Shown here piece after piece: positions 1 through 13,032 of a stretch of DNA of 64,000 nt. The stretch spans positions 1 to 64,000 of the forward strand of contig CAMECJ010000008.1 in NCBI GenBank assembly GCA_945913025.1, read 5' to 3'. The stretch comes from an uncultured Elusimicrobia bacterium (GTDB lineage Bacteria > Elusimicrobiota > Elusimicrobia > Elusimicrobiales > Elusimicrobiaceae). The notes beneath the pieces are model-generated. The model had not been told where the DNA came from and made no database searches. It worked only from the letters and a program-made list of their open reading frames with translations. The number at the start of each line of letters is the position of its first letter. Position 1 is the stretch's first letter. The translations under genes were made by a program, and so were the position numbers.

Positions 1-918
1 GACTTAAAAGATTATTCAGGCGCCATAGCAGACTATGACAAGGCCATAGAATTAGACCTGCAACATGCCACGGCTTATAATGCCCGCGGCGTTGCCAAGC
101 AAAGTTTAAAAGATTATGCAGGTGCCATAGCAGACTATGACAAGGCCATAGAACTAGACCCTCAAGATGCCAGTGCTTACTATAACCGCGGCATAGCCAA
201 GGATTACTTAAAAGATTATTCAGGCGCCATAGCAGACTATGACAAGGCCATAGAATTAGGCCTGCAACATGCCACGGCTTATAATGCCCGCGGCAATGCC
301 AAGGCAGACTTAAAAGATTATGTAGGTGCCATAGCAGACTATGACAAGGCCATAGAACTAGACCCTCAAGATGCCACGGCTTACTATAACCGCGGCGTTA
401 CCAAGAAAGACTTAAAAGATTATGCAGGTGCTGTTGCAGATTATGACAAAGCCATAGAATTAGACCCAAAAATGGCCGCCGCTTACAATAACCGCGGCAA
501 TGCCAAGGCGAACTTAGAAGATTATACAGGTGCTATTGCAGACTATGACAAGGCCATAGAACTAGACCCTCAATATGCCAGTGCTTACAATAACCGCGGC
601 AATGCCAAGGCGAACTTAAAAAATTATGTAGGTGCCATAGCAGATTTTGATGAAGCCATAGCCTTGAACCCGCAAGATGCGCTAACTTACTATAACCGCG
701 GCAATGCCAAGAAAGACTTAAAAGATTATGCAGGTGCCATAGCAGACTATGACAAAGCAATAGAACTAGACCCGCAATATATTAACGATTACAATAACCG
801 CAGCGTTACCAAGAAAGACTTAAAAGATTATGCAGGTGCTACCGCCGATTACAACAAAGCCATAGAACTCGCTCCCAAATACACTAGGGCTTATAACAAC
901 CTCATTACGCTTTATGAG
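1..918 (+). repeat. 102-bp tandem coding repeat array
   Basis: Nine consecutive 102-bp units begin at 1, 103, 205 and so on to 817, each encoding one TPR. Units 1 and 3 are nearly identical over their first 90 bases, and units 2 and 4 resemble each other more than their neighbours, giving a 204-bp higher-order repeat. The array begins before the window. Such arrays change copy number by unequal recombination. Confidence 0.9.
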
Positions 919-993
919 GCGTTAAAACAACCAGAAAAGGCCGAGGAAATACGGAAACTTAAACAAAAAATTGTCCCAAAAGATACTAATTAA
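1..993 (+). CDS. TPR-repeat protein, 5' end outside window
   Basis: The reading frame is open from base 1, so the N-terminus lies outside the window; about 330 residues are visible. They form successive 34-residue tetratricopeptide repeats of the pattern AYNNRGNAK-DLKDYAGAIADYDKAIELDP, about nine units, followed by a short tail ending in KPDTN-like polar residues after a final partial helix pair (LITLYEALKQPEKAEEIRKLKQK). TPR arrays are protein-protein interaction scaffolds; partner and cell location cannot be read from this part. It precedes an envelope gene cluster on the same strand, but a hairpin and about 200 bp separate them, so co-transcription is uncertain. The repeats are also almost identical as DNA, which marks recent expansion. 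Confidence 0.9.
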   Translation, partial: DLKDYSGAIADYDKAIELDLQHATAYNARGVAKQSLKDYAGAIADYDKAIELDPQDASAYYNRGIAKDYLKDYSGAIADYDKAIELGLQHATAYNARGNAKADLKDYVGAIADYDKAIELDPQDATAYYNRGVTKKDLKDYAGAVADYDKAIELDPKMAAAYNNRGNAKANLEDYTGAIADYDKAIELDPQYASAYNNRGNAKANLKNYVGAIADFDEAIALNPQDALTYYNRGNAKKDLKDYAGAIADYDKAIELDPQYINDYNNRSVTKKDLKDYAGATADYNKAIELAPKYTRAYNNLITLYEALKQPEKAEEIRKLKQKIVPKDTN

Positions 994-1018
994 CTTATCT
1001 TGCTTTATTTGTATTGCT

Positions 1019-1048
1019 CCCCGCGGAAATTTTTCCTCTTCCGCGGGG
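1019..1048 (+). terminator. Hairpin after TPR gene
   Basis: CCCCGCGGAA and TTCCGCGGGG form a perfect 10-bp stem around a 10-nt loop, 25 nt after the TPR stop codon. No T-run follows, so it may be a weak or factor-dependent terminator, or a 3'-end stabiliser. Confidence 0.55.
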
Positions 1049-1142
1049 ATTCTCGTCTATAATGTCCCTTTTTGGCACCTTCCAGTTTTTATAGTAGGAG
1101 ATAAACCGGTAATTTACTAGTTGTATAGGGAAATGTCCGTTT

Positions 1143-1158
1143 GTGGCAGGTGTGCCAC
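1143..1158. promoter_or_regulatory. Inverted repeat GTGGCA-N4-TGCCAC
   Basis: A perfect 6-bp palindrome with a 4-nt centre lies 30 bp before the 33-codon ORF. The stretch AATGTCC-N-TTT-N-TGGCA that leads into it is repeated imperfectly about 70 bp upstream, near 1060. Size and place fit a regulator binding site for the downstream cluster; this is inference. Confidence 0.35.
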
Positions 1159-1188
1159 TAATAATATAAGAACCAATGGAGGCTTGCT

Positions 1189-1290
1189 ATGAAAAACAGA
1201 TTCGGTTGTGAAATTGACGATAGTACACAGGAAGATTTTTATAGTTGGGGCTATTCGGAAGGGGAAATTTACGGTGATGGCAGTTATTAA
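1189..1290 (+). CDS. Small ORF, 33 aa, possible leader peptide
   Basis: An ATG at 1189 is preceded by GGAGG with 6-nt spacing, a better ribosome site than many genes here. It encodes 33 residues (MKNRFGCEIDD at the start, ending in GEIYGDGSY) that are acidic and rich in aromatic residues, with no signal peptide or membrane segment. I recognise no family. The stop is followed at once by a small hairpin and, 52 nt on, by the start of the envelope gene cluster, so it could be a leader peptide of that operon or simply its first small gene. A longer reading frame from 1208 overlaps it in another frame but lacks a ribosome site. Confidence 0.45.
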   Translation: MKNRFGCEIDDSTQEDFYSWGYSEGEIYGDGSY

Positions 1291-1306
1291 CGACAATACG
1301 TTGTCG
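1291..1306 (+). promoter_or_regulatory. Hairpin after small ORF
   Basis: CGACAA and TTGTCG pair around a TACG loop starting on the base after the small ORF's stop codon. A modest stem with a pyrimidine-rich tail (CTGTCTGTTT) could act as a weak attenuator between the small ORF and the next gene. Confidence 0.3.
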
Positions 1307-1342
1307 CTGTCTGTTTATAAACTACTTATAAGAGAGGTGAAA

Positions 1343-1864
1343 ATGAAAAAAATTATTGTGTTTTTGCTGTGTTTGACAGGTTTTGTACCTGCCTATGGGG
1401 CCAAATTCCAAACCTTGGACGAAGCCCTTACGGAAACTGCAACTAAAATTGCGCAAAATTCGTTTATTCCTAAAAACACTAAAATTGCCATTGTCGGCTT
1501 TTTGGAAAGCACTTCGCGGGTTCGCTATCCGTTAAGTAGTGTATTGGAAGATGATTTGAGTGGGTTTTTGATTGAAAAAATGCCTGGTCGTGTAATTGCT
1601 AAAAACCACATTGATACGGTCTTACGGGAACTAAAAATAACACGCGACGATATTTTTGATACGCGTAACCGCAAGCAATTCGGGCGGTTGGCTTCGGCGG
1701 ATTTGATTGTTAGCGGCAATTATTGGATTAATCGCCGAGAAGTGATTATTGTAGTAAATGTGGTAAATATAGAAAGCGGTCTAGCCTTTTTTTCACATCG
1801 GGTAAGAATCCGCAAATCGCAGTTTGATAAACATTTGTTAAATTCGGAAAATAAATACAAATAA
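1343..1864 (+). CDS. FlgO/CsgG-like exported protein
   Basis: 173 residues. The start at 1343 is chosen over an in-frame Met at 1208 because an AGAGAGGTGA ribosome site precedes it and it gives a clean signal peptide (MKKIIVFLLCLTGFVPAYG). The mature part has the fold signature of the FlgO/CsgG-type domain: a KIAIVGFLES strand, a DDLSGFLIEKMPG helix, GRVIAKNHIDTVLRELKI, and SADLIVSGNYW. These periplasmic or outer-membrane-associated domains occur in FlgO, CsgG and LpoB. No lipobox is visible, so it is probably soluble in the periplasm. It heads a cluster with 10-bp spacing to the next gene, an LPP20-like lipoprotein, the same pairing seen in FlgO/FlgP systems. No flagellar genes are present in the window. 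Confidence 0.7.
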   Translation: MKKIIVFLLCLTGFVPAYGAKFQTLDEALTETATKIAQNSFIPKNTKIAIVGFLESTSRVRYPLSSVLEDDLSGFLIEKMPGRVIAKNHIDTVLRELKITRDDIFDTRNRKQFGRLASADLIVSGNYWINRREVIIVVNVVNIESGLAFFSHRVRIRKSQFDKHLLNSENKYK

Positions 1865-1874
1865 GGAGAAAAGT

Positions 1875-2501
1875 ATGAAAAATACTTGGGTTGTACCGCT
1901 TGTAATAAGCGCTTGGTTGTTTGTTGGTTGCAGTTCCAAAAATATTGTTTCCACGCCGCAGTTAAATGTAAAGGTAGTGGAAACCATTCCCAATACATCT
2001 GCTCCGTCCTGGGTAAATGCTACCACGGAATTTTGGGAAGACAAGGGATTCTATTATTATCGGGGGACCGCAGAAGGGATGACCAATCTGGAAGCCGCCA
2101 AGCGGGCTGGCAATGCTTCTGCCCGTACCAATATGGCTGAACAGGTTAAGAGCACTATCCGCAGCGAGTTTGCGCGGGCGTTAGAGAGTGGAAACTATGA
2201 CGAAAATACCGGTGGGTATTTGAAGGATGTTTTCTTTTCTGCGGTGGATAATTTGACGGTGAATGGTATTGTAATGCAAGAATCCTATTTGCAGCACTTG
2301 TTAGAAAGCGATAGTGTGCAGGAGCGTATGTATTACCGTGCATATGTACTGGCCCGTATCAGTGTGAAAGATTATAATACCGTTGTAAGACGTGCTTTTA
2401 GCGATACCAAAGAACAGGTTGCCGCTAATAAAAGTGCCAAAGAATTGGTAAAAGAAACGGAAACTCGCTTTTGGGAGCAACAGGGTGAAAACAAACAATA
2501 A
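1875..2501 (+). CDS. LPP20/FlgP-like lipoprotein
   Basis: 208 residues, start preceded by AAGGAGAAAAGT. A signal peptide ends in a lipobox (LFVGC, Cys19), so this is a predicted outer-membrane lipoprotein. After a linker, PSWVN and YYYRGTAEGMTNLEAAKRAGNASA match the LPP20/FlgP-type domain, whose hallmark is a Gly-containing strand followed by a helix rich in Ala (EAxxxAxxxAR). A helical C-terminus rich in Lys/Glu follows. It overlaps the next lipoprotein gene by 17 bp, so the two are translationally linked. The role is not known; family members support surface structures or envelope assembly. Confidence 0.7.
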   Translation: MKNTWVVPLVISAWLFVGCSSKNIVSTPQLNVKVVETIPNTSAPSWVNATTEFWEDKGFYYYRGTAEGMTNLEAAKRAGNASARTNMAEQVKSTIRSEFARALESGNYDENTGGYLKDVFFSAVDNLTVNGIVMQESYLQHLLESDSVQERMYYRAYVLARISVKDYNTVVRRAFSDTKEQVAANKSAKELVKETETRFWEQQGENKQ

Positions 2502-3267
2502 GTTCTCCATTGGGAGTATTATTGTTTGCTTGCTGGGGAGTGCCGGTTGTGCTACGGCACCCTCCCAGCCGGAGTGGGCCGGAAAACTGTGGCAGGAAAA
2601 GCAAACTGTGTTAGTCAGCGGGATTTCTTCTAATTGTGCGGATATGGCTTGCGCGCAGAAAATTGCTTATGCCAATGCGTTATCTTCTTTGGCTGAATAT
2701 ATGGGCCTACGGATAAAAACCCATACTCGGGTAGATTTAAGTAGTGATGAACAAAGTGTCAATGCGGTGTATGAGGCCTATACACAGGAATTAGAAATAA
2801 ACAATTTAAAGATAGAGAAATTTGAGGCGGTGCGTAGCAAAACGGGCCTGACAGGCTATGTGTTGATTAGCGTAGAACAAAAAGAGTTACGGGCTGCTGT
2901 TATGCGCCGCGAACAACGGGAAAGAGCGACAGAACAGGAAAAATTACGAAAACAGCGGTTAGGGGCTTTTCGTGTAGTTGCTCCTAGAACTTGGCAAGAT
3001 TTGGCTCGCGGGGTAGAAAAAGTATTAAGAGAACAAGGTTACTTGGTGGGAAAGAACGGACAGACGGTACGACTATCCGTTGCCCCAATATCGTGTTGGT
3101 GGAGTCAAACAGGTACGATAGAAGTGTGTATATTGCAGGCTAGTATATTAGTTGGCAATAAGAAACAAACTTTTAGTGCCAAAGGATATGGGCAGGATGT
3201 TGCGCAGGCTCGTAAAGAAACGATTGAGGTGTGGTTGCGGGAATTGCCGGATAATTTAATGGAGTAA
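2485..3267 (+). CDS. Second LPP20-like lipoprotein
   Basis: 260 residues from a GTG start at 2485, supported by GGAG 7 nt upstream inside the preceding gene. The signal peptide ends in lipobox GSAGC (Cys22). Residues about 30-140 carry an LPP20-like domain: EWAGK, VLVSGISS, then AQKIAYANALSSLAEYMGLRI and later TGYVLISVEQKEL. Residues about 150-170 are a charged helix (RREQRERATEQEKLRKQR), and the C-terminal part contains two Cys (CWW, VCI) that could pair. It lies 3 bp before the autotransporter-like gene, which suggests that the lipoproteins serve that surface protein; this is inference from order only. Confidence 0.65.
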   Translation: MKTNNKFSIGSIIVCLLGSAGCATAPSQPEWAGKLWQEKQTVLVSGISSNCADMACAQKIAYANALSSLAEYMGLRIKTHTRVDLSSDEQSVNAVYEAYTQELEINNLKIEKFEAVRSKTGLTGYVLISVEQKELRAAVMRREQRERATEQEKLRKQRLGAFRVVAPRTWQDLARGVEKVLREQGYLVGKNGQTVRLSVAPISCWWSQTGTIEVCILQASILVGNKKQTFSAKGYGQDVAQARKETIEVWLRELPDNLME

Positions 3268-3270
3268 ACG

Positions 3271-5424
3271 ATGAAGAAATATATTTTAGTGTGTATGTTA
3301 GTTCTGTGCGCCTGGGCGGCGTTTGCACAAGATAAAGAAATTATGGATAATCGGTATGGTTATTCATATGAATATTACAGATACAACGCGGTGGAAAACA
3401 AATCCTTTCAAGATATTAGTGGTTGGGATTCTGCTGTGCGAGTATCTGGTAGTTGGCCTTTATATTTTAAAAATGTGGATTTTCTTCGTAACCATACAGG
3501 GATTAGTTTAACAGGTGGCAAGGCGGGTTTTATAGATGTAAATTTCACTAATAATGACTCCGGTGGCATACGAATTGCCAGTCCTAGTAGTTCCCTATTA
3601 GGCGCGGAACGGGTATTATTTTCACAAAACCAGGCGACTAATGGTGCGGGTATTTATTCTGCCATTTTAGATAGTACCTCTTTCGGCGCATTTAAAACTG
3701 TTCGGTTTGATTATAATACGGCTTCGCAAAATGGCGGGGGAATGTATGTTAAGCATAATTATCAAACTATGCAAGACGTGCAATTTACGGGTAACCGCGC
3801 TATGCTGGGTGGAGGTATTTATGCGGAGAACGATTTTACCTTATCAGGAGGGAATATATCGTTTGTCAACAATGCGGCTAACCAGGGCGGGGGCATTTAT
3901 TCGGCAAAAAATTTAACTCTGCACGCTGAAAATGGGGATATTGTTTTTACTAATAATACAGGAAACGGGGTATATATGGGAGATTCCAATGCTATTTTGC
4001 GCTTGGAAACAACCCCTACGGGGAATATTATTTTTAACGATAGCATTGGTGGTAGTGCTGATATTGTGGCAGCTGGACAGGGAAATGTATCTTTTTATAA
4101 GCCGTTTGGATCTTCGCAGTTATTTTTAAACTCCGGTAGCGTTTATTTAGATCCAACCCAAAATTGGGATCATTCTAAAATAGTGGCCCAAGGGGGATTT
4201 TTAGCATTGACCGATGAGCAAGCCAATGAATTAAAACTGGGAACATTAACCTTGGACTCTAATTTATCTGTTAAGCCAGAAGTGGATATGCTAGGTGGAA
4301 AGATGGACTCTTTAAATATCCAAAATGTATTGGGATTACAAAAAATACGTGTGGACGGGTTTCATTTACTTTCTGTTAATAGCGAAGCCCCAACGACATT
4401 ATCTTTTATGAAAGGTAACGGAAAGGACAAAGTAAATGTGGCGGTAGATGCCTATGATGATATTTTTAGGTATCAGGCCAGTTATGACTCTATTTCGGGG
4501 AATATTACTTTTACACCGCAAAAGTTGCTGTTAGGCCAAGGAACGGCATCTGCCGATGCTTTTGCTCCTAAAACAATGATGCTACCGTTGTTCGCCTATG
4601 AAGCGGCGGACAGCGTGGTGCAAATGCTAAATAGTCGCAGTGAATTGCGTTTGGCGCAGGTGTGGCAGTTTGATGAACCGCGTTCGGGGCTTTATTTCCA
4701 ACCTTATTACCAAAGCGGGAAAAAGAAATTTACAAACGATGCCCAAGTGGATGATACTCGCCAAGGAGTTGCTTTCGGTGGGTTTAGTGGAGATTTGGAG
4801 TATTTTGACTCTATGGTTCTTTCGGCGGGTTGGTATGGTAACTATCAGCAGGGAAAATCGGATTATTCAGCCCTGCATTTAAAGCAAACACAGTACCAAG
4901 TAGGTGGCGATTTGTTCTTATATTCTTATCACTTTTTTATGGGGTTAACTGCCCAAGTTGGAATGAGTAATCAAAAGAAGCAAGAGAACAGTTCCGTATT
5001 TTTAGGCGGCGCAGAAGCCCAATTAGGATTTAATTGGGATTTATCGGCATCAGAATTATTTTTGCAACCATTTGGCAAATATAGTTATGCTTATGTCGGT
5101 GCCGGAGATGATGCAAGAAATGGGGCGGCGATATTAACGAGTGAAGCCTTTTCATTTACCCAGGCGCAGGGCGGGGTAAGGTTATTAAAAGTCTATAACG
5201 ATAATTGGAGTGCTCATTTGGGTGGAAGTTATGTAAAACAAATGCCACTCAACAACAATTTTAGTGCGGGTAATGTTTTGCTACCCAAATTTGAACTGGA
5301 CGGTTACGCACAAGCCTCGGCAGGATTTCAGTGGAGCGGAGAAAAAAGAAGTTTTTCTGCTGATATACAGGCTCAATTGGGAAAAGTAACGGGTTGGGGT
5401 CTAATGTTGTCAGTCGCTTTTTAG
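3271..5424 (+). CDS. Autotransporter-like surface protein
   Basis: 717 residues. A signal peptide (cleavage near AAFA-QDKE) is followed by a beta-helix-like passenger with repeated GGGIY/GGGMY and FTNN/FxxN motifs at about residues 90-240, the pattern of polymorphic outer-membrane proteins and other Pmp-type passengers. From about residue 450 the sequence switches to alternating aromatic beta-strands typical of an autotransporter barrel, ending in LSVAF with the C-terminal Phe used for outer-membrane insertion. Predicted to be displayed at the surface. It starts 3 bp after the lipoprotein gene with a weak ribosome site (TGGAGTAAACG), so coupling is likely. The ligand or enzymatic role of the passenger is unknown. 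Confidence 0.8.
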   Translation: MKKYILVCMLVLCAWAAFAQDKEIMDNRYGYSYEYYRYNAVENKSFQDISGWDSAVRVSGSWPLYFKNVDFLRNHTGISLTGGKAGFIDVNFTNNDSGGIRIASPSSSLLGAERVLFSQNQATNGAGIYSAILDSTSFGAFKTVRFDYNTASQNGGGMYVKHNYQTMQDVQFTGNRAMLGGGIYAENDFTLSGGNISFVNNAANQGGGIYSAKNLTLHAENGDIVFTNNTGNGVYMGDSNAILRLETTPTGNIIFNDSIGGSADIVAAGQGNVSFYKPFGSSQLFLNSGSVYLDPTQNWDHSKIVAQGGFLALTDEQANELKLGTLTLDSNLSVKPEVDMLGGKMDSLNIQNVLGLQKIRVDGFHLLSVNSEAPTTLSFMKGNGKDKVNVAVDAYDDIFRYQASYDSISGNITFTPQKLLLGQGTASADAFAPKTMMLPLFAYEAADSVVQMLNSRSELRLAQVWQFDEPRSGLYFQPYYQSGKKKFTNDAQVDDTRQGVAFGGFSGDLEYFDSMVLSAGWYGNYQQGKSDYSALHLKQTQYQVGGDLFLYSYHFFMGLTAQVGMSNQKKQENSSVFLGGAEAQLGFNWDLSASELFLQPFGKYSYAYVGAGDDARNGAAILTSEAFSFTQAQGGVRLLKVYNDNWSAHLGGSYVKQMPLNNNFSAGNVLLPKFELDGYAQASAGFQWSGEKRSFSADIQAQLGKVTGWGLMLSVAF

Positions 5425-5486
5425 AGGGGAATTGTCCTCTTTTGGCAGGATTTTTTCTAATAATAGCCATACAAAGGGAGAAAAGT

Positions 5487-6308
5487 ATGTTTACCTTAAA
5501 AGAATATACCCAAGAAATTAAAACTAATTTAAATGTCCCGCAAAAGATTGCGTTTCAAATGCCTTATTTGTGTCCTTTTCCAACTTCCGAACTTGTAGGG
5601 GGATTTGAACAAGATAAAGCCTATTTTTTCTTTGCAAAAGAGAACAGCCTTTCTCTGCGGCATTTGCGAACTTTTTTCTTGCGTCAGGCATTAATGCAAA
5701 AATTGCGCGTATTGGTGCAAGATCCTGGTTATTTACATTATGAGGATATGCGTGCTTTGTTATCTGTGGAAACGAGTCAAAATGTGAGTATGTTATTTGA
5801 CTTGTTGTTAAACCGCCAAGAAATGTTGTTCCCTGAATTGGACAAATTAGCCCAAGGGGATATTACTTGGTTGCGTGCAAAAGCCAGTGTCTTTCCGACT
5901 ACATTGGGACATAAAGTAGTTATTGGTGAGGCGGAATATAACTATGATATGATTTTACTCTCTATGACACAGGCGGAATTGATTTCTACTCCCACCTTGC
6001 CTCAAGAGTTAGCCCGTAATAGCCATAGCGTGGTGATTGTATTTGTTACACAAACAAATGAGGAAGCAGTCGCCCCTTATCCATTACGCTGTTTTCAGCA
6101 GGAAGAACCAAATCTGGAAAATATTGGCGAAGAATTTAATTTTGTGGCAGATACGTCGGTTGAGGAATATGGAAAAAATGACGAATTAATAGAAACTAAA
6201 CTAATAGAGATAATTTCTTATGCTAAGATAAATTCTTATTTCCCCAATTGCAAGGAATATGATTTCCACGACGGAATTTTAGAGTGGTATGTTAGAGAGG
6301 CGGAGTAA
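5487..6308 (+). CDS. Unknown protein, 273 aa
   Basis: The start at 5487 is preceded by AGGGAGAAAAGT; an upstream in-frame Met at 5394 would overlap the previous gene and has no ribosome site. I do not recognise the family. There is no signal peptide, no membrane helix and no Walker motif. Residues 60-130 are helical and leucine-rich; a strand-like stretch near 170 (YDMILLSM) and another (SVVIVFVT) suggest an alpha/beta core. The C-terminus is acidic. It lies between the surface protein and the ClpX-like gene; as a probable cytoplasmic protein it could be a partner or substrate adaptor of the unfoldase, which is only a guess from position. Confidence 0.75.
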   Translation: MFTLKEYTQEIKTNLNVPQKIAFQMPYLCPFPTSELVGGFEQDKAYFFFAKENSLSLRHLRTFFLRQALMQKLRVLVQDPGYLHYEDMRALLSVETSQNVSMLFDLLLNRQEMLFPELDKLAQGDITWLRAKASVFPTTLGHKVVIGEAEYNYDMILLSMTQAELISTPTLPQELARNSHSVVIVFVTQTNEEAVAPYPLRCFQQEEPNLENIGEEFNFVADTSVEEYGKNDELIETKLIEIISYAKINSYFPNCKEYDFHDGILEWYVREAE

Positions 6309-6331
6309 TCCGTCATACCAGAGTAAATGTG

Positions 6332-6356
6332 GCGGTCGGAACACCTCCCCGGCCGC
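6332..6356 (+). terminator. Hairpin before ClpX-like gene
   Basis: GCGGTCGG and CCGGCCGC form an 8-bp stem (one G-T pair) with a 9-nt loop, followed within 15 nt by TTTATATTTTT. It could be a partial terminator setting a lower level of the last gene of the cluster. Confidence 0.45.
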
Positions 6357-6384
6357 TACTTTATATTTTTAACGGGTGTTATTT

Positions 6385-7881
6385 ATGGAAATAAAAGAAG
6401 GAAATATAGAGAAGGACTCTGCAAATGTGTTATCTTTTTTGGAACAGCCCGAAGGCTATCACGCCAACGAAGAATATGTAGCCGATGTAATAAAATTATT
6501 TCACTTGCTAGAGCACCCAGTAAATCAAAAACAAGCGTTTGCTTGTATGCAATATTTGGATAAATGCGTGGAACTAAGTGCTCCAAAAATTGCATTTGAA
6601 AAAGAACTCAAAAAATATAATTTATCCGTTGTGGAAAAATTTTGTTTACTCAAACTAATTTATGTGGATTTGTTTGGGGCACATTATACACGGTTTACTA
6701 TGCGGGACTTGTTTCAATTTGTTATAAATAGCAAACTTTGCCCCATCGAGTATGCGGTACGGGTGATTTTACAACCTTCTTCTACTATTTATAAACAAGG
6801 CTTGGTACTGTGTAATAAGGGCAGTATTAGTTTGCGGCGGGATTTAATAGATTTATTCATCAATGGCAAGTGCACTAACTATCATGTAAATAGAACGGAT
6901 AAATTGCCAAGATGTTCTATTCTTTCCATTTATAAAGGTTTAAATCGTTTTATCATTGGACAGGAGCAGGCCAAACAGGACCTTGCTAGTGCCGTATATG
7001 AACATTTTTTGCGTTGTAAAATTGCCCAAAAGGAAGGCCGTCCTATGGAAAAGAATAATATGCTACTAATCGGTCCGACCGGAACCGGCAAGACTTATTT
7101 ATGCCGGATATTGGCGCAGATTTTGCAAATACCGTTTTATATAGCTGATGCCAGCCAAATGACGGATACCGGTTATGTTGGGCCTAGTGTAGATAGCGTA
7201 TTAATCAACCTGCGAAAGCAAATTCCAAATATGGGGTCTGTTTTTCCACCAGCGATTGTATATTTGGATGAAATAGATAAACTGGCCTTTAAGGATACGA
7301 TAAAAGATGTAAGCGGGCGTGGTGTACAAGAAGAGTTATTGAAATTGTTGGAATCAACAGTTTATACTACATCTGCAGATAAATTTAGAGAGGGTCAACA
7401 GTATGATATTTCTAATATTATGTTTATTGCAGGCGGTTCTTTTGCTGGTATAGAAAATATTGTTTTAAATCGTACACATCAACACCAAATTGGTTTTGGA
7501 ACCCCAAAGGGGAAAGTCCTTGTCCCCAATAACATTACTCCTTGCGATTTGGAAACCTATGGCTTTATGCCAGAACTGATAGGGCGGTTTAGTCATATTA
7601 GTCAACTATCCTCTTTAACGGAACAGAATTTAATGGATATTTTAAGCAAAGCAAAAAACAATCCGTTGGAACAGTATAGACGCATTTTTAATGAGGCTGG
7701 GATTGCCTTGCATGTCCCCAATACAGTATTGAGAACTCTTGCCACGCAGGCATTAACAAATCAAACGGGGGCCCGCGGATTAAAAACAGTTTTAAGCACC
7801 TTGCTTGGCAAGGCTCTTTTTGATTGCCACTTGCACAAAAAGAAAGAGTACACTTTGTCCTTACTTGGAACAAATGTTTGA
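6385..7881 (+). CDS. ClpX-like AAA+ unfoldase, no zinc finger
   Basis: 498 residues from ATG 6385; GTG at 6376 is an alternative. From about residue 190 the protein follows ClpX closely: IGQEQAKQDLASAVYEH, Walker A GPTGTGKT near 230, pore-loop GYVG, Walker B IVYLDEIDK near 291, GRGVQEELLKLLES, an IGFG loop near 369 equivalent to the ClpP-docking loop of ClpX, the arginine-finger region PELIGRF, and sensor-2 GARGL. ClpX unfolds proteins with ATP and feeds them to ClpP. Here the usual zinc-binding N-domain is absent; instead about 185 residues of unknown helical sequence precede the AAA+ core. So it is a paralogue with a different substrate-recognition domain, and it probably keeps ClpP contact. 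It closes the surface-protein cluster. Confidence 0.85.
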   Translation: MEIKEGNIEKDSANVLSFLEQPEGYHANEEYVADVIKLFHLLEHPVNQKQAFACMQYLDKCVELSAPKIAFEKELKKYNLSVVEKFCLLKLIYVDLFGAHYTRFTMRDLFQFVINSKLCPIEYAVRVILQPSSTIYKQGLVLCNKGSISLRRDLIDLFINGKCTNYHVNRTDKLPRCSILSIYKGLNRFIIGQEQAKQDLASAVYEHFLRCKIAQKEGRPMEKNNMLLIGPTGTGKTYLCRILAQILQIPFYIADASQMTDTGYVGPSVDSVLINLRKQIPNMGSVFPPAIVYLDEIDKLAFKDTIKDVSGRGVQEELLKLLESTVYTTSADKFREGQQYDISNIMFIAGGSFAGIENIVLNRTHQHQIGFGTPKGKVLVPNNITPCDLETYGFMPELIGRFSHISQLSSLTEQNLMDILSKAKNNPLEQYRRIFNEAGIALHVPNTVLRTLATQALTNQTGARGLKTVLSTLLGKALFDCHLHKKKEYTLSLLGTNV

Positions 7882-7940
7882 TCTATTAAGTTATAGTTTG
7901 TGCTGCAATAAAAATAGATTATATATAACGTGAGGGGTTA

Positions 7941-8075
7941 ATGATGCCGGAGCAACCACTTAATGCGGAATAACAGAAAATTTTTGATAATGTTATACGA
8001 CGCAATAAAAAAGAAAACGAATCCGACGAAAGAAGATATCCGGTATTTTTCCATTTTTGGGAAAATTACAACTGA
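7941..8075 (+). pseudogene. Possible small ORF broken by an in-frame stop
   Basis: ATG ATG after GAGGGG reads ten codons (MMPEQPLNAE), meets TAA at 7971, then continues in the same frame for 33 more codons of protein-like sequence (QKIFDNVIRRNKKENE, then RRYPVFFHFWENYN) to TGA at 8073. It could be a decayed small gene or chance. No family recognised. Confidence 0.25.
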
Positions 8076-8189
8076 TACAAGGGACAGACGAGGTCCTTTG
8101 TATGTCCACAAACCCGTTCTCTATTACCCAAAATGTTCAGCGCATACCCATCACATACTTATAAGAGATTTTATATTGTCGGGAGAAAA

Positions 8190-8327
8190 CTAAAAATAGG
8201 GGTTAGAATTTAATCTAGCCCCTATCTCTTGCCCCAAAAATCTCGTATAGGGTTCCTTGCATGTTCTGCATATCCTGTTAATTTTGGCAATCTCGGTTTC
8301 CAATGTTTCTTGTTCTTTTTCTGTCAT
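8190..8327 (-). CDS. Possible 45-aa protein or gene fragment
   Basis: A minus-strand frame from ATG 8327 to TAG 8190 reads MTEKEQETLETEIAKI and continues with ICRTCKEPY and a polar C-terminus. The composition (Glu/Lys-rich amphipathic start, CxxC) is more protein-like than chance frames nearby. No Shine-Dalgarno site is visible, and the frame stays open six codons upstream without a start, so it may be the 3' remnant of a longer gene. The hairpin at 8196-8225 lies within its last codons. Confidence 0.3.
   Translation of the reverse strand: MTEKEQETLETEIAKINRICRTCKEPYTRFLGQEIGARLNSNPYF
8196..8225. other. 12-bp hairpin
   Basis: ATAGGGGTTAGA and TCTAGCCCCTAT pair over 12 positions (one G-T) around a 6-nt loop. 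It sits about 315 bp after the ClpX-like gene; no strong T-run follows on the + strand. Possibly a terminator relic or transcript end. Confidence 0.4.
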
Positions 8328-8584
8328 ATGTAGGTCTAATTTTTAAAGAGATATAATTACCACTATCGGCACGAACTTATATTGCTATTGGAATATACAA
8401 TATTCCATCAATTTAATATCCATTAGGGCGCCTATTTAAAATTATTAAGATTAAAATCCCAGTACCATTAATCAAAACGCAATTTATTCTCTATTTTCCA
8501 CTTTTTTTTCCTGATAAACAGGAAATTACCCCCCTCCTCTAGCGACCCTAGAAGTATATCAGTCTACCCGCCCACCATTTAACG

Positions 8585-8620
8585 CAAATCCTCCACTCCC
8601 GTGGGGGATTTGTGTTTTAT
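8585..8620 (+). terminator. Rho-independent terminator
   Basis: CAAATCCTCCAC and GTGGGGGATTTG form a 12-bp stem with a TCCC loop, followed by TGTTTTAT. It insulates the accessory block from the murein-recycling operon that begins 90 bp downstream. Confidence 0.7.
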
Positions 8621-8709
8621 ATCCGCGCCACAGACCGCGGCGTTCCGTTTTATATTTTCTTTTTCACGCACCCCGCTCGGTATGCTATACTAAATACAAG
8701 AGAGGACTT

Positions 8710-9726
8710 ATGCCCACAAATAACATTCACGATAAAGTAGCCCCCATCAACAACATCTGTCTGATGATTTTGGCCGCCACAGCCGCCACTATCATCTTAG
8801 TATATACCAAAGTAATGCTGATGCCGTTTGTTATTGCTTTGTTTATTTCTATGGTAGCCAGCACGTTGGCCGAAAACCTAAAACGCAAGTGGAAGGTGCC
8901 ATATGTTTTGGGATTAGTCATCGGTTTTGCGGCGTTTTTGGCACTTATTATTCTGTCGGTACTGTTTATTTCCAGTTCCATTGAAAGCTTCATCGCCGGA
9001 GCGGATATTTATTCCGAGCGCGTGAGCGACACCATAGACTGGTTCCTTCTCAGCGCACAAAAATACGGAATTAAGATGAACGCCGAATTTGTAACAGAAA
9101 CTGTTTCCAAACTACCGATATTTAATGTAGTAAAAAGTTTAGGCGGCACGCTTGTATCCATTTTGACCAACTTAATGCTGATTACGCTTTTCCTTATCTT
9201 TATTTTTATGGGTAAAGCGGCGGAGGACAAACCCGCTCTCGTGGGCAATATCCAGCGGCAAATTTCGTTTTACTTAATCGTTAAAATTTTCGTATCGCTT
9301 CTGGCAGCCGGATTTACCTGGATTGTACTGGCGTCCATCAAAACGGAACTGGCCTCAATGCTCGCGGTACTGACGTTTGTGCTTAATTTTATCCCCAACA
9401 TTGGGCCGTTTATTTCCACCTTGCTTCCTATGCCCGTATTGTTCTTGCAGTACGGGTTTGACTGGCATATCCTTTTGGCGCTTATTTTGCTGACCGCTAT
9501 TCATTTTATCATCGGAAATGTACTTGAAACAAAATGGCTCGGCAAAGGGATGGACCTGGACCCGATTGTCGTCATCGCCAGCTTGCTTTTTTGGGCGATT
9601 GTATGGGGAATTATGGGCGCACTGTTAGCCGTGCCGCTTACGGCCATTATCAAAATGGCGCTTGAACGCAACGAAACCACCAAACCTTTGGCCGACTTAC
9701 TGGCCGGAAAATACGCATTTAAATGA
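8710..9726 (+). CDS. AI-2E family transporter (TqsA/PerM type)
   Basis: 338 residues with about eight hydrophobic segments: a pair at the N-terminus (ICLMILAATAATIILVYTK and onward), a soluble stretch at about 95-155, and a C-terminal bundle containing FIPNIGPFIS and ETKWLGKGMDLDP, the signature region of the AI-2E/PerM exporter family (PF01594). Members export signalling molecules or act as ion antiporters; the substrate cannot be told here. AGAGAGGACTT precedes the ATG, and a TATACT -10 box lies 25 bp before the start. Its TGA overlaps the ATG of the ampG-like gene (ATGA), so it is translationally coupled to the murein-recycling genes and may be part of that function. Confidence 0.85.
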   Translation: MPTNNIHDKVAPINNICLMILAATAATIILVYTKVMLMPFVIALFISMVASTLAENLKRKWKVPYVLGLVIGFAAFLALIILSVLFISSSIESFIAGADIYSERVSDTIDWFLLSAQKYGIKMNAEFVTETVSKLPIFNVVKSLGGTLVSILTNLMLITLFLIFIFMGKAAEDKPALVGNIQRQISFYLIVKIFVSLLAAGFTWIVLASIKTELASMLAVLTFVLNFIPNIGPFISTLLPMPVLFLQYGFDWHILLALILLTAIHFIIGNVLETKWLGKGMDLDPIVVIASLLFWAIVWGIMGALLAVPLTAIIKMALERNETTKPLADLLAGKYAFK

Positions 9727-11063
9727 AAAAATTATCTCCGTGGGCGTTTATCCCCACCTTATATTTAGCGGAAGGATTTCCGTATATCGTCATCAACACG
9801 GTATCAGCAGTGTTATATGCAGACCTCGGCTTCTCCAACGCAAAAATTGCGTTTTGGACGGGGTGGCTGTATCTGCCTTGGATTTTAAAAATGTTTTGGA
9901 GTCCGATCGTAGACGCCCGCAGCACCAAACGGCATTGGCTTTTGGCGGGGCAAGCCGTTCTGGCGGCAGTATTTTTACTGGTGGGAATATGCACAGCCGT
10001 CTCGGCGTTTTTACAAAATGCGGGAAGTATGACGTTTTTTACGTTATCACTCTTCGGCTTTTTATTCGGCGCATTTGCGTCCGCCACGCTGGACGTCGCC
10101 ACAGACGGCTACTACCTGCTTGCGCTTACGCCGCGCGAACAAGGCTATTTCGTCGGTATCCGTACTATTTTTTATCGTCTGGCAATGATTTTGGGCAGCG
10201 GTGTATTGATTTCCGTTACGGGCGCGCTTGCTAACCCGAACCCGAAGTGGTCTTTTGATATAATGCCGTGGCCGTACAACTGGGCTGCGCTGTTTGGGTT
10301 TCTCGGTCTTTTGTTCGCTGCGTTCGCCGCATGGCACGGCAAAATTTTACCTGTTCCGGCAGCGGACAAACCCGTTTCATCCAATCGTGCAAACGCTTGG
10401 AAAGAATCCTTTCAAACGTACTTTTCGCAGCGAAACATCATCTACATTTTATTATTTATTTTATTGTACCGCTTGGGCGACGCGCTGCTTGAAAAAATCG
10501 TACCGCTCTTTTTACTCAAACCGCAGGATACGGGGGCAATGGGAATGTCTTTGCAGTATTACGGGCTGATTAAAGGAACGCTCGGCCTGGGAGCGGTGAT
10601 TGCGGGCAATTTGGGCGGAGGCTGGCTGCTCGGCAAATTCGGTTTCAAAAAGTGTATTTGGCCGTTTGCCGTTATTTTAATTCTGCCCAACTTTTTTTAC
10701 GCTTATATGGCGTGGGCCAAACCGGGGCTGGCTGTTACGGCGGCCTTAATCACCCTGGAGCACCTGGGCAACGGCCTTGCGATGATGGCGTTTTCCGTTT
10801 TTATTATGTACGTATCGCAGGGGAAATATAAAACATCCCACTACGCCATTTCCACGGGGATTATGGCCCTTGGCATGATGGTTCCTTCCATGCTTTCGGG
10901 CAAAATGCAGGCCGCGCTGGGATATGAAACGTTTTTTATAATTGCTTCCGTCATCAGCCTGGTTACGCTGGCGGTTATCCCGCTGACGGGAAAAATTAAA
11001 TCCATCGAAGAAACCGAACAGGCGTTTAAACAACATAAAATGAGCCTTTCGGACGGAGATTAA
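9723..11063 (+). CDS. ampG: AmpG-like muropeptide permease (MFS)
   Basis: 446 residues, about 12 membrane segments. The N-terminus reads PTLYLAEGFPY, then GFSNAKIAFWTGWLYLPW and KMFWSPIVDARSTKRHWLL, matching AmpG rather than sugar MFS proteins. AmpG is the inner-membrane proton symporter that brings GlcNAc-1,6-anhydroMurNAc muropeptides into the cytoplasm. The context makes this firm: the next three genes (murQ, anmK, nagZ-like) encode the enzymes that take those muropeptides apart. It overlaps the upstream gene by 4 bp and is directly followed by murQ with no gap. Confidence 0.85.
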   Translation: MKKLSPWAFIPTLYLAEGFPYIVINTVSAVLYADLGFSNAKIAFWTGWLYLPWILKMFWSPIVDARSTKRHWLLAGQAVLAAVFLLVGICTAVSAFLQNAGSMTFFTLSLFGFLFGAFASATLDVATDGYYLLALTPREQGYFVGIRTIFYRLAMILGSGVLISVTGALANPNPKWSFDIMPWPYNWAALFGFLGLLFAAFAAWHGKILPVPAADKPVSSNRANAWKESFQTYFSQRNIIYILLFILLYRLGDALLEKIVPLFLLKPQDTGAMGMSLQYYGLIKGTLGLGAVIAGNLGGGWLLGKFGFKKCIWPFAVILILPNFFYAYMAWAKPGLAVTAALITLEHLGNGLAMMAFSVFIMYVSQGKYKTSHYAISTGIMALGMMVPSMLSGKMQAALGYETFFIIASVISLVTLAVIPLTGKIKSIEETEQAFKQHKMSLSDGD

Positions 11064-11951
11064 ATGAACACGAACGCGCTGCCCACCGAACAGGTAAACC
11101 CGCGCACCCAAGGGCTTGATAAAATGACGCCGCGGCGTTTAGCCCGCGCTTTTAACGCCGAAGATTTTAATGCCGCCAGAGCCGTACAACAAGCGAACAA
11201 AGAAATTGCGGCCGCCATTGTACTGGCCGCACAGGCATATGCTGCCAAGAAAAAAATTATTTTTATAGGAGCGGGAACCAGCGGACGCCTCGGCATTTTG
11301 GAAGCAGTGGAATGTGTTCCCACTTTTGGAACGAAACCGTCGCAAATTATCGGGCTGATCGCCGGCGGAAAACAAGCTGTATTCCGCGCCAAAGAAGGGG
11401 CGGAAGATGACGATAAACAAGGTACAGCTGAAATTTTGAAAACGGCCAAACGCGGGGATCTCGTCATCGGGTTGACGGCCAGCGGCCGCACGCCGTACGT
11501 AATGGGCGGCTTAAAAGCGGCCAAAAAATTAGGCGCGCGTACCGTATTAATTTCCTGCAACGCAGGCGCGGACGTAAGCAACGCCGAAGCACATATTTGC
11601 TTAGCCACGGGGCCGGAGGCCCTCAGCGGTTCCACGCGCATGAAAGCGGGTACCGCCACCAAAATGGCGTTAAACGCCATCACTACGGGAGCCATGACGC
11701 TGTGCGGCAAAACCTACGGAAACTTGATGATTGACGTCCGCCCCACCAACGAAAAGCTGGTGGCGCGCGCCGTACGGCTTATCTGCCAGGTGGCGGGCAC
11801 GGACGAAAAAACCGCCCAAAAATTATTGGTTTCTTCGGGCCGAAGCGTTAAAACGGCCGTCGTAATGCACAAAAAACATGCGGACAAAACGCAGGCGGAA
11901 AAACTCCTTAAACAACAAAACGGTTTTTTAACCAAGGTAATTGATGACTAA
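11064..11951 (+). CDS. murQ: N-acetylmuramic acid 6-phosphate etherase
   Basis: 295 residues, the usual MurQ length. It cleaves the lactyl ether of MurNAc-6-phosphate to give GlcNAc-6-phosphate and D-lactate in the cytoplasm. A SIS sugar-isomerase domain is clear: IFIGAGTSGRLGILEAVEC, GLTASGRTPYV and ALSGSTRMKAGTATKM, the MurQ signature. Its ATG directly follows the ampG TAA, and its 3' end overlaps anmK by 8 bp. D-lactate released here could feed the D-2-hydroxyacid dehydrogenase encoded at 53.8 kb, though nothing links the two genetically. Confidence 0.97.
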   Translation: MNTNALPTEQVNPRTQGLDKMTPRRLARAFNAEDFNAARAVQQANKEIAAAIVLAAQAYAAKKKIIFIGAGTSGRLGILEAVECVPTFGTKPSQIIGLIAGGKQAVFRAKEGAEDDDKQGTAEILKTAKRGDLVIGLTASGRTPYVMGGLKAAKKLGARTVLISCNAGADVSNAEAHICLATGPEALSGSTRMKAGTATKMALNAITTGAMTLCGKTYGNLMIDVRPTNEKLVARAVRLICQVAGTDEKTAQKLLVSSGRSVKTAVVMHKKHADKTQAEKLLKQQNGFLTKVIDD

Positions 11952-13032
11952 AATCGCACTCGGCCTTATGAGCGGTACTAGCGCGGACGGACTGACCGTC
12001 TGCGCCGTGCGCCCTGCGCCGTTTAAAATTTTGCATTTTAAAAATTATTCCTATCCCGCAGAACTTCAGCGCCGTCTGTTAAACGCGGTAAAGCTGACCG
12101 TTCCTGCACTCAGCCAACTTAATTATGAACTGGGTGCGCTGTACGCTAAAATAGTACGTAAGTTTTTGAAAGAATTTAACCTGCGCGCACAAGATATTTG
12201 CGTGATTGGTTCGCACGGGCAGACCGTTTATCATGGGCCGCACGACAAAACCCCCAACACACTGCAAATCGGCGATCCGTCGTTTTTGGCGTGTGAAACG
12301 GGTGCGCCCGCGGTGAGCGAGTTCCGCGCCAAGGATATTGCGCTGGGCGGTGAAGGCGCGCCGCTGCTTCCTTTTTTTGATGAATACATTTGGGGACAAG
12401 GTTCTCCAAAAATTTTACTTAACGTAGGCGGAATCTCCAATTTTTCCGTTGTGGGTAAAAAGATAAAAACATTTGGGTTTGACGTCGGCCCCGGCAATAC
12501 TCTTATTGATTTAACCTGCCAGCATCTTTTACACCAACCGTTTGATAAAAATGGTCAAACCGCCGCCGAAGGCACGCCGGATAAAGCGTTGGTAAAAAAA
12601 CTGCTCAAACAAAAATTCTTTGCGCAAAAACCGCCCAAAAGTTTGGATAAAAACGAATTTGGAAAAACGTATTTAGAAAAATATTTTGCGTTGCCGCACT
12701 GCCAAAATGTGCCGGATCTGCTCTCCACGCTCACCTATTTTACGGCGGCGGCAGTGGCAAAAGCAGTAACGGATTTTGTGCCCAAAAGCGCACAAAAAGA
12801 ACTGGTAGTTTCCGGAGGCGGCTGTTACAACCAAACGCTTTTAAAATTTCTGCGCGAACTGCTGCCGCACATCAACGTAACCACCACGCTTGCCTACGGT
12901 ATTGACCCGCAGGCCAAAGAAGCCGCCGCGTTTGCGCTGTTTGGCTGCCTTGCGCTTAAACGCAAAACCAACCATTGCGCCCGCGCGACGGGCGCGCGGG
13001 AAAATACCGTTTTGGGGAAAATTACTTTATGA
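11944..13032 (+). CDS. anmK: Anhydro-N-acetylmuramic acid kinase
   Basis: 362 residues from ATG 11944 (an in-frame TTG at 11941 is less likely). AnmK opens and phosphorylates 1,6-anhydroMurNAc to MurNAc-6-phosphate, the substrate of MurQ. Seen motifs: GLMSGTSADGL phosphate-binding strand, GSHGQTVYHGP, RAKDIALGGEGAPLLPFFDE, NVGGISNF, FDVGPGNTLID and VVSGGGCYNQTL, all standard for the family (actin-like ATPase fold). It overlaps murQ by 8 bp and nagZ by 4 bp (ATGA). Confidence 0.97.
   Translation: MTKIALGLMSGTSADGLTVCAVRPAPFKILHFKNYSYPAELQRRLLNAVKLTVPALSQLNYELGALYAKIVRKFLKEFNLRAQDICVIGSHGQTVYHGPHDKTPNTLQIGDPSFLACETGAPAVSEFRAKDIALGGEGAPLLPFFDEYIWGQGSPKILLNVGGISNFSVVGKKIKTFGFDVGPGNTLIDLTCQHLLHQPFDKNGQTAAEGTPDKALVKKLLKQKFFAQKPPKSLDKNEFGKTYLEKYFALPHCQNVPDLLSTLTYFTAAAVAKAVTDFVPKSAQKELVVSGGGCYNQTLLKFLRELLPHINVTTTLAYGIDPQAKEAAAFALFGCLALKRKTNHCARATGARENTVLGKITL

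Follow-up and report, generated by a model that had tools for sequence, protein, structure and literature searches.

Does the adjacency of a surface autotransporter, FlgO/LPP20-type proteins and a ClpX-like unfoldase in an uncultured Elusimicrobia bacterium reflect one system, or the meeting of separate ones? The window (the whole stretch of 64,000 nucleotides analysed) holds a same-strand block of six such genes, here called A to F, for which the initial annotation offered either a surface protein served by dedicated helper proteins of the outer membrane, together with a cytoplasmic quality-control pair, or a mobile trait with unrelated parts. We favor, with moderate confidence, an explanation in which a serine-recombinase element at tRNA-Val carries a surface-display module (module 1) and a cytoplasmic E-F module (module 2).

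Layout and composition of the block

The ORF calls bore out the block at the coordinates claimed for it and with the spacings claimed between consecutive ORFs (10, −17, 3, 62, and 76 bp); for F, an alternative GTG start lies at 6376. Its left boundary had to be moved, as a truncated TPR gene and a 33-aa ORF belong on that side. The window starts at a contig end, inside the TPR gene, and the left side of the cluster is therefore cut off. The features are as follows.

1-993, +, tpr, 3' part of a TPR-repeat protein gene (TPR_1, E = 2.2e-37), 5' end lost at the contig end
1018-1049, +, strong hairpin in the interval between tpr and the small ORF (z −4.2; 0/200 shuffles as stable; position from sequence)
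1189-1290, +, small ORF s, 33 aa, ending in GYxExEIYG, with a Shine-Dalgarno-like GGAGG at 1178-1182
1343-1864, +, A, secreted FlgO/CsgG/LpoB-like protein, 173 aa (homolog family matches)
1875-2501, +, B, LPP20/FlgP-like lipoprotein, 208 aa (lipobox LFVGC by eye; LPP20 matches; synteny)
2485-3267, +, C, second LPP20/FlgP-like lipoprotein, 260 aa (lipobox SAGC by eye)
3271-5424, +, D, autotransporter, 717 aa (POMP_repeat, E = 1.7e-14; AlphaFold; Foldseek)
5487-6308, +, E, 273 aa, of a small family usually found beside ATPases
6329-6359, +, G+C-rich hairpin between E and F, 11-bp stem followed by a T/A-rich run
6385-7881, +, F, ClpX-derived AAA+ unfoldase (NCBIfam ClpX, PDB alignments, family alignment, tree)
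8570-8582, +, 13-bp repeat GCCCACCATTTAA, identical to the tRNA-Val(CAC) 3' end on contig C15

The family hints given for A, B, C, D, and F held, and E matched no library family. Base composition confirmed the low G+C content relative to flanking genes (GC3 of 0.34 to 0.44 in A to F versus 0.54 to 0.57 in genes to the right); for ABCD, low GC3 was restricted to this genome, homologous units elsewhere being host-like. A pseudogene-like stretch was seen at approximately 7890-8500. Rfam searches of positions 1 to 12000 gave no match, and consensus scans for promoters and terminators gave sites not above shuffled-sequence counts. The hairpin between E and F (−27.8 kcal/mol, z −3.5, 0/200 shuffles) appears terminator- or attenuator-like. 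The terminal motif of s recurred in small ORFs of other loci, located upstream of A in genome G016 and immediately upstream of F-type genes at approximately 11 loci, and the F-type copies of s showed dN < dS.

A probable integrated element at tRNA-Val(CAC)

The AI-2E-type gene at 8710, downstream of the block, is core and syntenic; in all 10 relatives it was preceded by host genes (marC-uvrB-birA or others) and no block, with tRNA-Val(CAC) adjoining it in 7 of the 10. In the genome studied here, marC-uvrB-birA and tRNA-Val sit on contig C15 and the block on contig C8. On C15, tRNA-Val is followed by terminase, DUF5681, ParB/methylase, and serine-recombinase genes (41% GC in these element genes versus 50% beyond). 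The 13-bp repeat is present in a single copy in the window (0.01 expected), and it is likely the right attachment site of the island. A recombinase, a tRNA target, a direct repeat, and an empty site in relatives, by which tRNA-integrated elements are recognized, were thus all found, and together with low GC3 in this genome alone they uphold the mobile-trait reading. That the block is cargo which a serine-recombinase integrative element would have brought in on inserting at the tRNA-Val(CAC) 3' end is well supported by these comparisons; since the piece between C15 and C8 is unassembled, we infer from synteny that both ends belong to one insertion. Like other serine-recombinase tRNA elements, the island combines a large serine recombinase with ParB/methylase, DUF5681, and terminase genes and has the 3' end of a tRNA gene as its insertion point, marked by a short repeat. 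It differs from known serine-recombinase integrative elements in its cargo, and its middle part falls in the unassembled gap.

A proposed surface-display module

Five further genomes from the genus share the syntenic order tpr-A-B-C-D, F being absent in every one. For A to D this supports the reading of a surface protein with dedicated helpers in the outer membrane, but not the six genes as a unit, as the unit conserved at genus level stops after D; the cluster is best read as two modules, the tpr-A-B-C-D surface-display unit and an accessory unfoldase part. A TPR gene held the same position upstream of A in four further loci (L065, L066, L102, and L105) and was fused to a kinase-like domain in a fifth (L067), and by gene order the conserved envelope module opens with tpr.

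The signal-peptide-like N terminus of A was recognized by eye. All five A homologs matched CsgG, FlgO, and LpoB (best E values of 1.8e-5, 5.4e-5, and 0.0024, respectively), in agreement with the assignment proposed at the outset, with A itself scoring 14.7 against Pfam FlgO (gathering score, 22.6). B is among the most conserved members of the module (58 to 67%). LPP20 likeness, also proposed at the outset for B and C, was weak (3/4 B homologs matched Pfam LPP20 at an E value of 0.012 or weaker, below the gathering score); by hhalign, B is a homolog of C (96.8%), and B-C synteny was seen in other classes too. The AlphaFold model of D (mean pLDDT, 83) comprises a signal peptide, a beta-helix passenger with PMP repeats (residues ~23 to 420), a linker helix (433 to 464), and a C-terminal barrel (473 to 716) with Phe as the last residue, and its best Foldseek matches were EstA, AaaA, EspP, AIDA-I, and NalP (E = 7e-9). 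As modeled, passenger, linker helix, and C-terminal barrel give D a type V autotransporter architecture, as the initial annotation had anticipated. Chlamydial Pmp-type and EstA/AIDA-I/EspP autotransporters share this order of parts and the PMP/POMP repeats; D departs from known autotransporters in a barrel outside the Pfam autotransporter models, none of which matched it, and in its tie to the A-B-C genes.

FlgP is an LPP20-type protein, and the FlgO/FlgP system resembles the block in having a FlgO/CsgG-family protein beside LPP20-type lipoproteins. In Vibrio, FlgO and FlgP make up the H-ring of the flagellar motor (PMC6375700). The block differs from the Vibrio system in that a single gene run encodes an autotransporter along with two lipoproteins, in its weak sequence similarity, and in a host genome without the flagellar rod-protein family: a genome search for Flg_bb_rod, the flagellar family searched, found none, and a flagellar role was rejected on this ground. 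Module 1 (tpr, s, and A to D) would instead act as a surface-display unit, in which periplasmic A and the lipoproteins B and C may assemble into a scaffold or ring associated with the outer membrane, and D would cross this membrane via its own barrel and display the beta-helix passenger.

Proteins E and F and the relation between the modules

F matched NCBIfam ClpX at an E value of 3.1e-83, yet under the cut-off (279.9 bits versus 359, and 248.5 versus 370.75). Its motifs GPTGTGKT, DEIDK, GYVG (pore loop), and GARGL aligned with solved ClpX chains (E = 2e-61), and its IGFG aligned with that of ClpX, GF being invariant in 13 family members. NCBIfam and the solved chains thus agree with the first description of F as a ClpX-like AAA+ protein, and by its motifs it looks like an active unfoldase. 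With the ClpX of ClpXP it shares the AAA+ core, Walker motifs, GYVG pore loop, IGF loop, and sensor-2 GARGL, but the RKH loop is absent (F is shortened there), Pfam detected no zinc domain, and a family-specific N-terminal domain of approximately 180 aa, common to the family, takes the place of the latter. Unlike ClpX, N-type F genes are accessory and often WYL-linked (a WYL gene within 3 kb in 19/36 loci), and they coexist with core-only ClpX matches in several genomes. Searches of phages and plasmids with F gave matches to the ClpX core alone, none covering 80% of F, and viral-contig matches were nearly all core-only. F is apparently an accessory unfoldase of an undescribed type. ClpP is present in this genome (ClpP-family matches in 61/61 genomes searched), and F, as a hexameric ClpX-type unfoldase whose N-terminal domain would pick substrates or partners, probably passes substrates to this housekeeping ClpP.

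Elsewhere, the E family has double-AAA+ or DnaB-like ATPases as neighbors and, in several genomes, adjoins serine recombinases, WYL genes, and ATPases. No Walker A/P-loop was found in 10 aligned members. Comparison of E with DnaB-like partners/DnaB_C by hhalign gave 64% (E = 6.5e-5, 158 columns), falling to 4.6% with a smaller alignment, and E may be a DnaB/RecA-fold relative without a Walker A motif. Its profile found nothing credible among solved structures, and a single-sequence structure model was uninformative (pLDDT, 34). In genome G086, E directly follows D (46% identity for D and 44% for E) and is followed by an opposite-strand ORF, the closest F relative lying elsewhere, beside a WYL gene. 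The cytoplasmic quality-control pair first suggested is only partly supported: F looks like an active unfoldase, but no fixed link joins E to F, E being found next to D without F or next to other ATPases. E may be an adaptor- or partner-type protein, kin to the companions of AAA+/DnaB-like ATPases on sister elements.

Envelope genes and F never occurring together had been set in advance as evidence against a joint cluster. No other ABCD locus contains F, and the two were mostly found apart, the exception being the distant genome G038, in which a run of genes on one strand starts with an F homolog, includes a kinase and an FHA protein, and closes with an LPP20 lipoprotein (passing the Pfam gathering score). 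Each half occurs apart in relatives, and functional coupling of the modules, though conceivable, is in our view doubtful. The G038 run, the D-E adjacency kept in G086, the presence of s in both A-type and F-type loci, and the same-strand order with uniform low GC3 would all suit a single system, in which F, using E as an adaptor, would govern the amount or quality of surface-apparatus components or of the regulator of this apparatus, s being a small regulated substrate or signal. We regard such a system as unlikely, given that five genomes of the genus keep tpr-A-B-C-D without F, that a strong hairpin lies in the E-F interval, and that a shared mobile element accounts for adjacency without function.

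WYL-regulated defense or mobile loci are known (PMC4012209), and WYL/HTH regulators likewise lie beside F-type and ABCD-type loci. No WYL gene was visible in the window, whose contig begins inside the TPR gene. An anti-phage or inter-element conflict system comprising F (and E), travelling by chance with the surface-protein module, would fit the WYL regulators near F, the ATPase partners, the company kept by the E family, and the terminase on the same element, and the PADLOC WYL model matched one F-associated regulator. This explanation is quite improbable in our estimation, as PADLOC matched F only to generic AAA+ parts (DolB, IetA, and TRIP13), the block has no nuclease or toxin-like effector, and effector genes of known WYL-linked defense systems were not found. 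That F replaces ClpX in housekeeping ClpXP work would suit its IGF loop and an order with ClpP-family proteins but no core-only ClpX matches, but we consider it highly implausible. It was rejected on the patchy distribution of F, which is missing from the majority of genomes in the order and coexists with core-only ClpX matches in several other genomes; the zinc domain and RKH loop are also lost.

The best reading thus remains a surface-display module and a putative accessory unfoldase on one island. A literature search for ClpX, autotransporters, or PMP repeats in Elusimicrobia returned nothing relevant. More speculatively, and with low probability, Elusimicrobiota may harbor undescribed mobile-element systems of WYL-regulated F, E-type/DnaB-like partners, and s. 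The version in the window would be wired to an outer-membrane apparatus of FlgO, LPP20, and autotransporter proteins, with unfolding in the cytoplasm serving to control a surface structure or to protect the element.

If the two-module explanation is correct, two transferable modules would be named in a poorly known gut phylum. Use of FlgO/FlgP-like proteins beside a beta-helix autotransporter would be nonflagellar and could reveal a role outside the flagellar motor. The host order appears to be without standard ClpX yet keeps ClpP, and an accessory ClpX with its substrate-recognition domain replaced would be a natural case of rewired ClpXP specificity. The island would likewise illustrate the exchange of surface proteins among uncultured gut bacteria.

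Probable insertion of the block at tRNA-Val(CAC)

The six open reading frames described in the initial annotation, with gaps of 10, -17, 3, 62 and 76 bp, are indeed present on this 97-kb contig (C8) of the 1.76-Mb genome, of which the window covers the first 64 kb. The features concerned are as follows.

1189-1290: s, a small ORF of 33 amino acids that precedes A
1343-7881, plus strand: genes A (FlgO/CsgG-like), B and C (lipoproteins), D (beta-helix autotransporter), E (273 amino acids) and F (ClpX-derived AAA+ unfoldase)
8570-8582: single recurrence in the window of 13 bases of the tRNA-Val 3' end, immediately before host sequence restarts
8710: AI-2E-type gene, a core gene with 60 to 83% identity in the genus

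The block was correctly described as more AT-rich than its flank (GC3 of 0.34 to 0.44 in A to F versus 0.54 to 0.57 in the genes to the right). In relatives, the G+C content of ABCD homologs matches that of their own surroundings, and the low GC3 of the window's genes thus indicates that this copy was acquired. In 10 relatives, the AI-2E-type gene is followed by the same MFS gene (and in 9 of the 10 also by murQ) and preceded by host genes, with no A-F block there; tRNA-Val(CAC) lies nearby in 7 of the 10. In the window's genome, marC-uvrB-birA and tRNA-Val(CAC) are located on another contig, C15, where the tRNA 3' end is followed by a Terminase_6C terminase, DUF5681, a ParB/N6-N4-methylase and a large serine recombinase before the contig ends. 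From synteny, we infer that C15 and C8 are joined across an assembly gap. The suggestion that the block is a mobile trait is well supported by its absence from the 10 relatives, the recombinase and the tRNA-end repeat.

The stretch at about 7890-8500, near the island's right end, is low in G+C and its reading frames are interrupted; it may be a decayed gene. Contig C23 of the same genome (L357, 1-1840) carries the end of a second TPR gene (81% identical over 67 amino acids) and, with 92% identity, an 87-bp counterpart of window positions 8496-8581 that takes in 12 bp of the att-like repeat; it may be another copy or a missing piece of the element.

The putative surface-display module

Relatives were searched with B, C and D, and the neighborhoods of the matches were read. 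The order TPR gene(s), A, B, C, D recurs in G010, G029 and G016, and a GTDB scan added two genomes with tpr-A-B-C-D (same contigs as G079 and G090); these five genus genomes, among which the window's own record is not counted, are MAGs. A WYL regulator lies upstream of the unit in four of the five, and none of the genes 3' of D in the five loci is related to E or F. A is CsgG/FlgO/LpoB-like across all homologs, and B and C are lipoproteins homologous to each other with weak LPP20 likeness. D contains PMP repeats. In its model (mean pLDDT, 83), a beta-helix is followed by a linker helix and a C-terminal barrel, and the best structural matches are to autotransporters. Other classes of the phylum have B-C pairs too, and G322 encodes a PMP-like protein two genes ahead of B. 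Since no Flg_bb_rod protein, the sole flagellar family searched, was found in the window's genome, a flagellar role for FlgO-like A is unlikely.

In G082 (L298, 7701-11300), two B-type lipoproteins with proteins of 510 and 267 amino acids between them constitute a variant envelope module that lacks A and D. By eye, a candidate Cas9-like gene lies about 3.7 kb past the ABCD unit of G010 (L065, 13714-15825).

The accessory ATPase module

F is ClpX-like yet scores under curated cutoffs. Alignment to solved ClpX chains shows that F retains Walker A and B along with the GYVG pore loop, IGFG and GARGL and that it no longer has the RKH loop (roles of these loops, PMC7112951); the zinc domain is replaced by an N-terminal region common to its family. 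A stand-alone relative of this region, n (about 170 amino acids), is encoded 3' of F in 11 genus loci. An F-family profile run over 341 genomes of the phylum yielded full-length N-type proteins versus core-only matches, the latter of which we take as canonical ClpX. The window's order has N-type matches only, in a minority of its genomes; searches of about 60 genomes of this order turned up no canonical-type ClpX, and ClpP-family matches occurred in 61 of the 61 searched. Both classes occur together in G235, G291, G314, G316, G322 and G325. In 19 of 36 loci, F has a WYL gene no more than 3 kb away. In the tree, the window's F clusters with F from G086, from one genome of another family in the order and from genomes distant at class level, apart from the common genus type, which suggests that F spread horizontally. 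A second F copy, on contig C4 of the window's genome, has two recombinase-like genes upstream; downstream (L101, 11834-15286), two vWA-like genes, a PP2C-like phosphatase and a Ser/Thr-kinase-like gene stand in a row by eye.

Of the 341 genomes, 10 had E-family proteins, whose neighbors were a double-AAA+ protein at five loci and a DnaB-like ATPase at three. Profile comparison of E with these DnaB-like partners gave a probability of 64% across 158 columns; E has lost the P-loop and may have a degenerate RecA-type fold. Recombinase and methylase families of the island also accompany E in G021, G073 and G092.

Possible coupling of the two modules

The other initial reading was of a surface protein with its helpers and a quality-control pair. 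In the window E adjoins D as well as F; in G086 it adjoins D, and an opposite-strand ORF comes after E; with identities of 46% (D) and 44% (E) between the two, the D-E linkage is old. The closest relative of the window's F is in G086 as well, beside a WYL gene on a different contig from D-E. The small ORF s ends in a conserved motif, GYx[DE]xx[IV]Y, also found ahead of A in G016 and directly ahead of F-type genes in about 11 loci; s-type ORFs precede A-type or F-type genes in the window and in L036 to L040, L067, L137, L139, L140, L142 to L144 and L148. The DNA pattern occurs twice in the window's genome, before A and before an F-type gene, and copies at F-type loci had dN < dS in those comparisons that could be computed. 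A same-strand run in G038 comprises F, proteins of 209 and 912 amino acids (the latter zinc-finger-like by eye), a kinase-like protein, an FHA protein, a 471-amino-acid protein and a bona fide LPP20 lipoprotein; beside it (L044, 1-720) are repeats resembling, by eye, a CRISPR array. Against coupling stand the E-F hairpin and the lack of F at the five other ABCD loci.

An open-access literature search found no prior work on either module. The block is real and is the cargo of a mobile island. Its two modules, one a conserved putative surface-display unit and the other an accessory ATPase unit, usually occur apart from each other, and each is a variation on known kinds.
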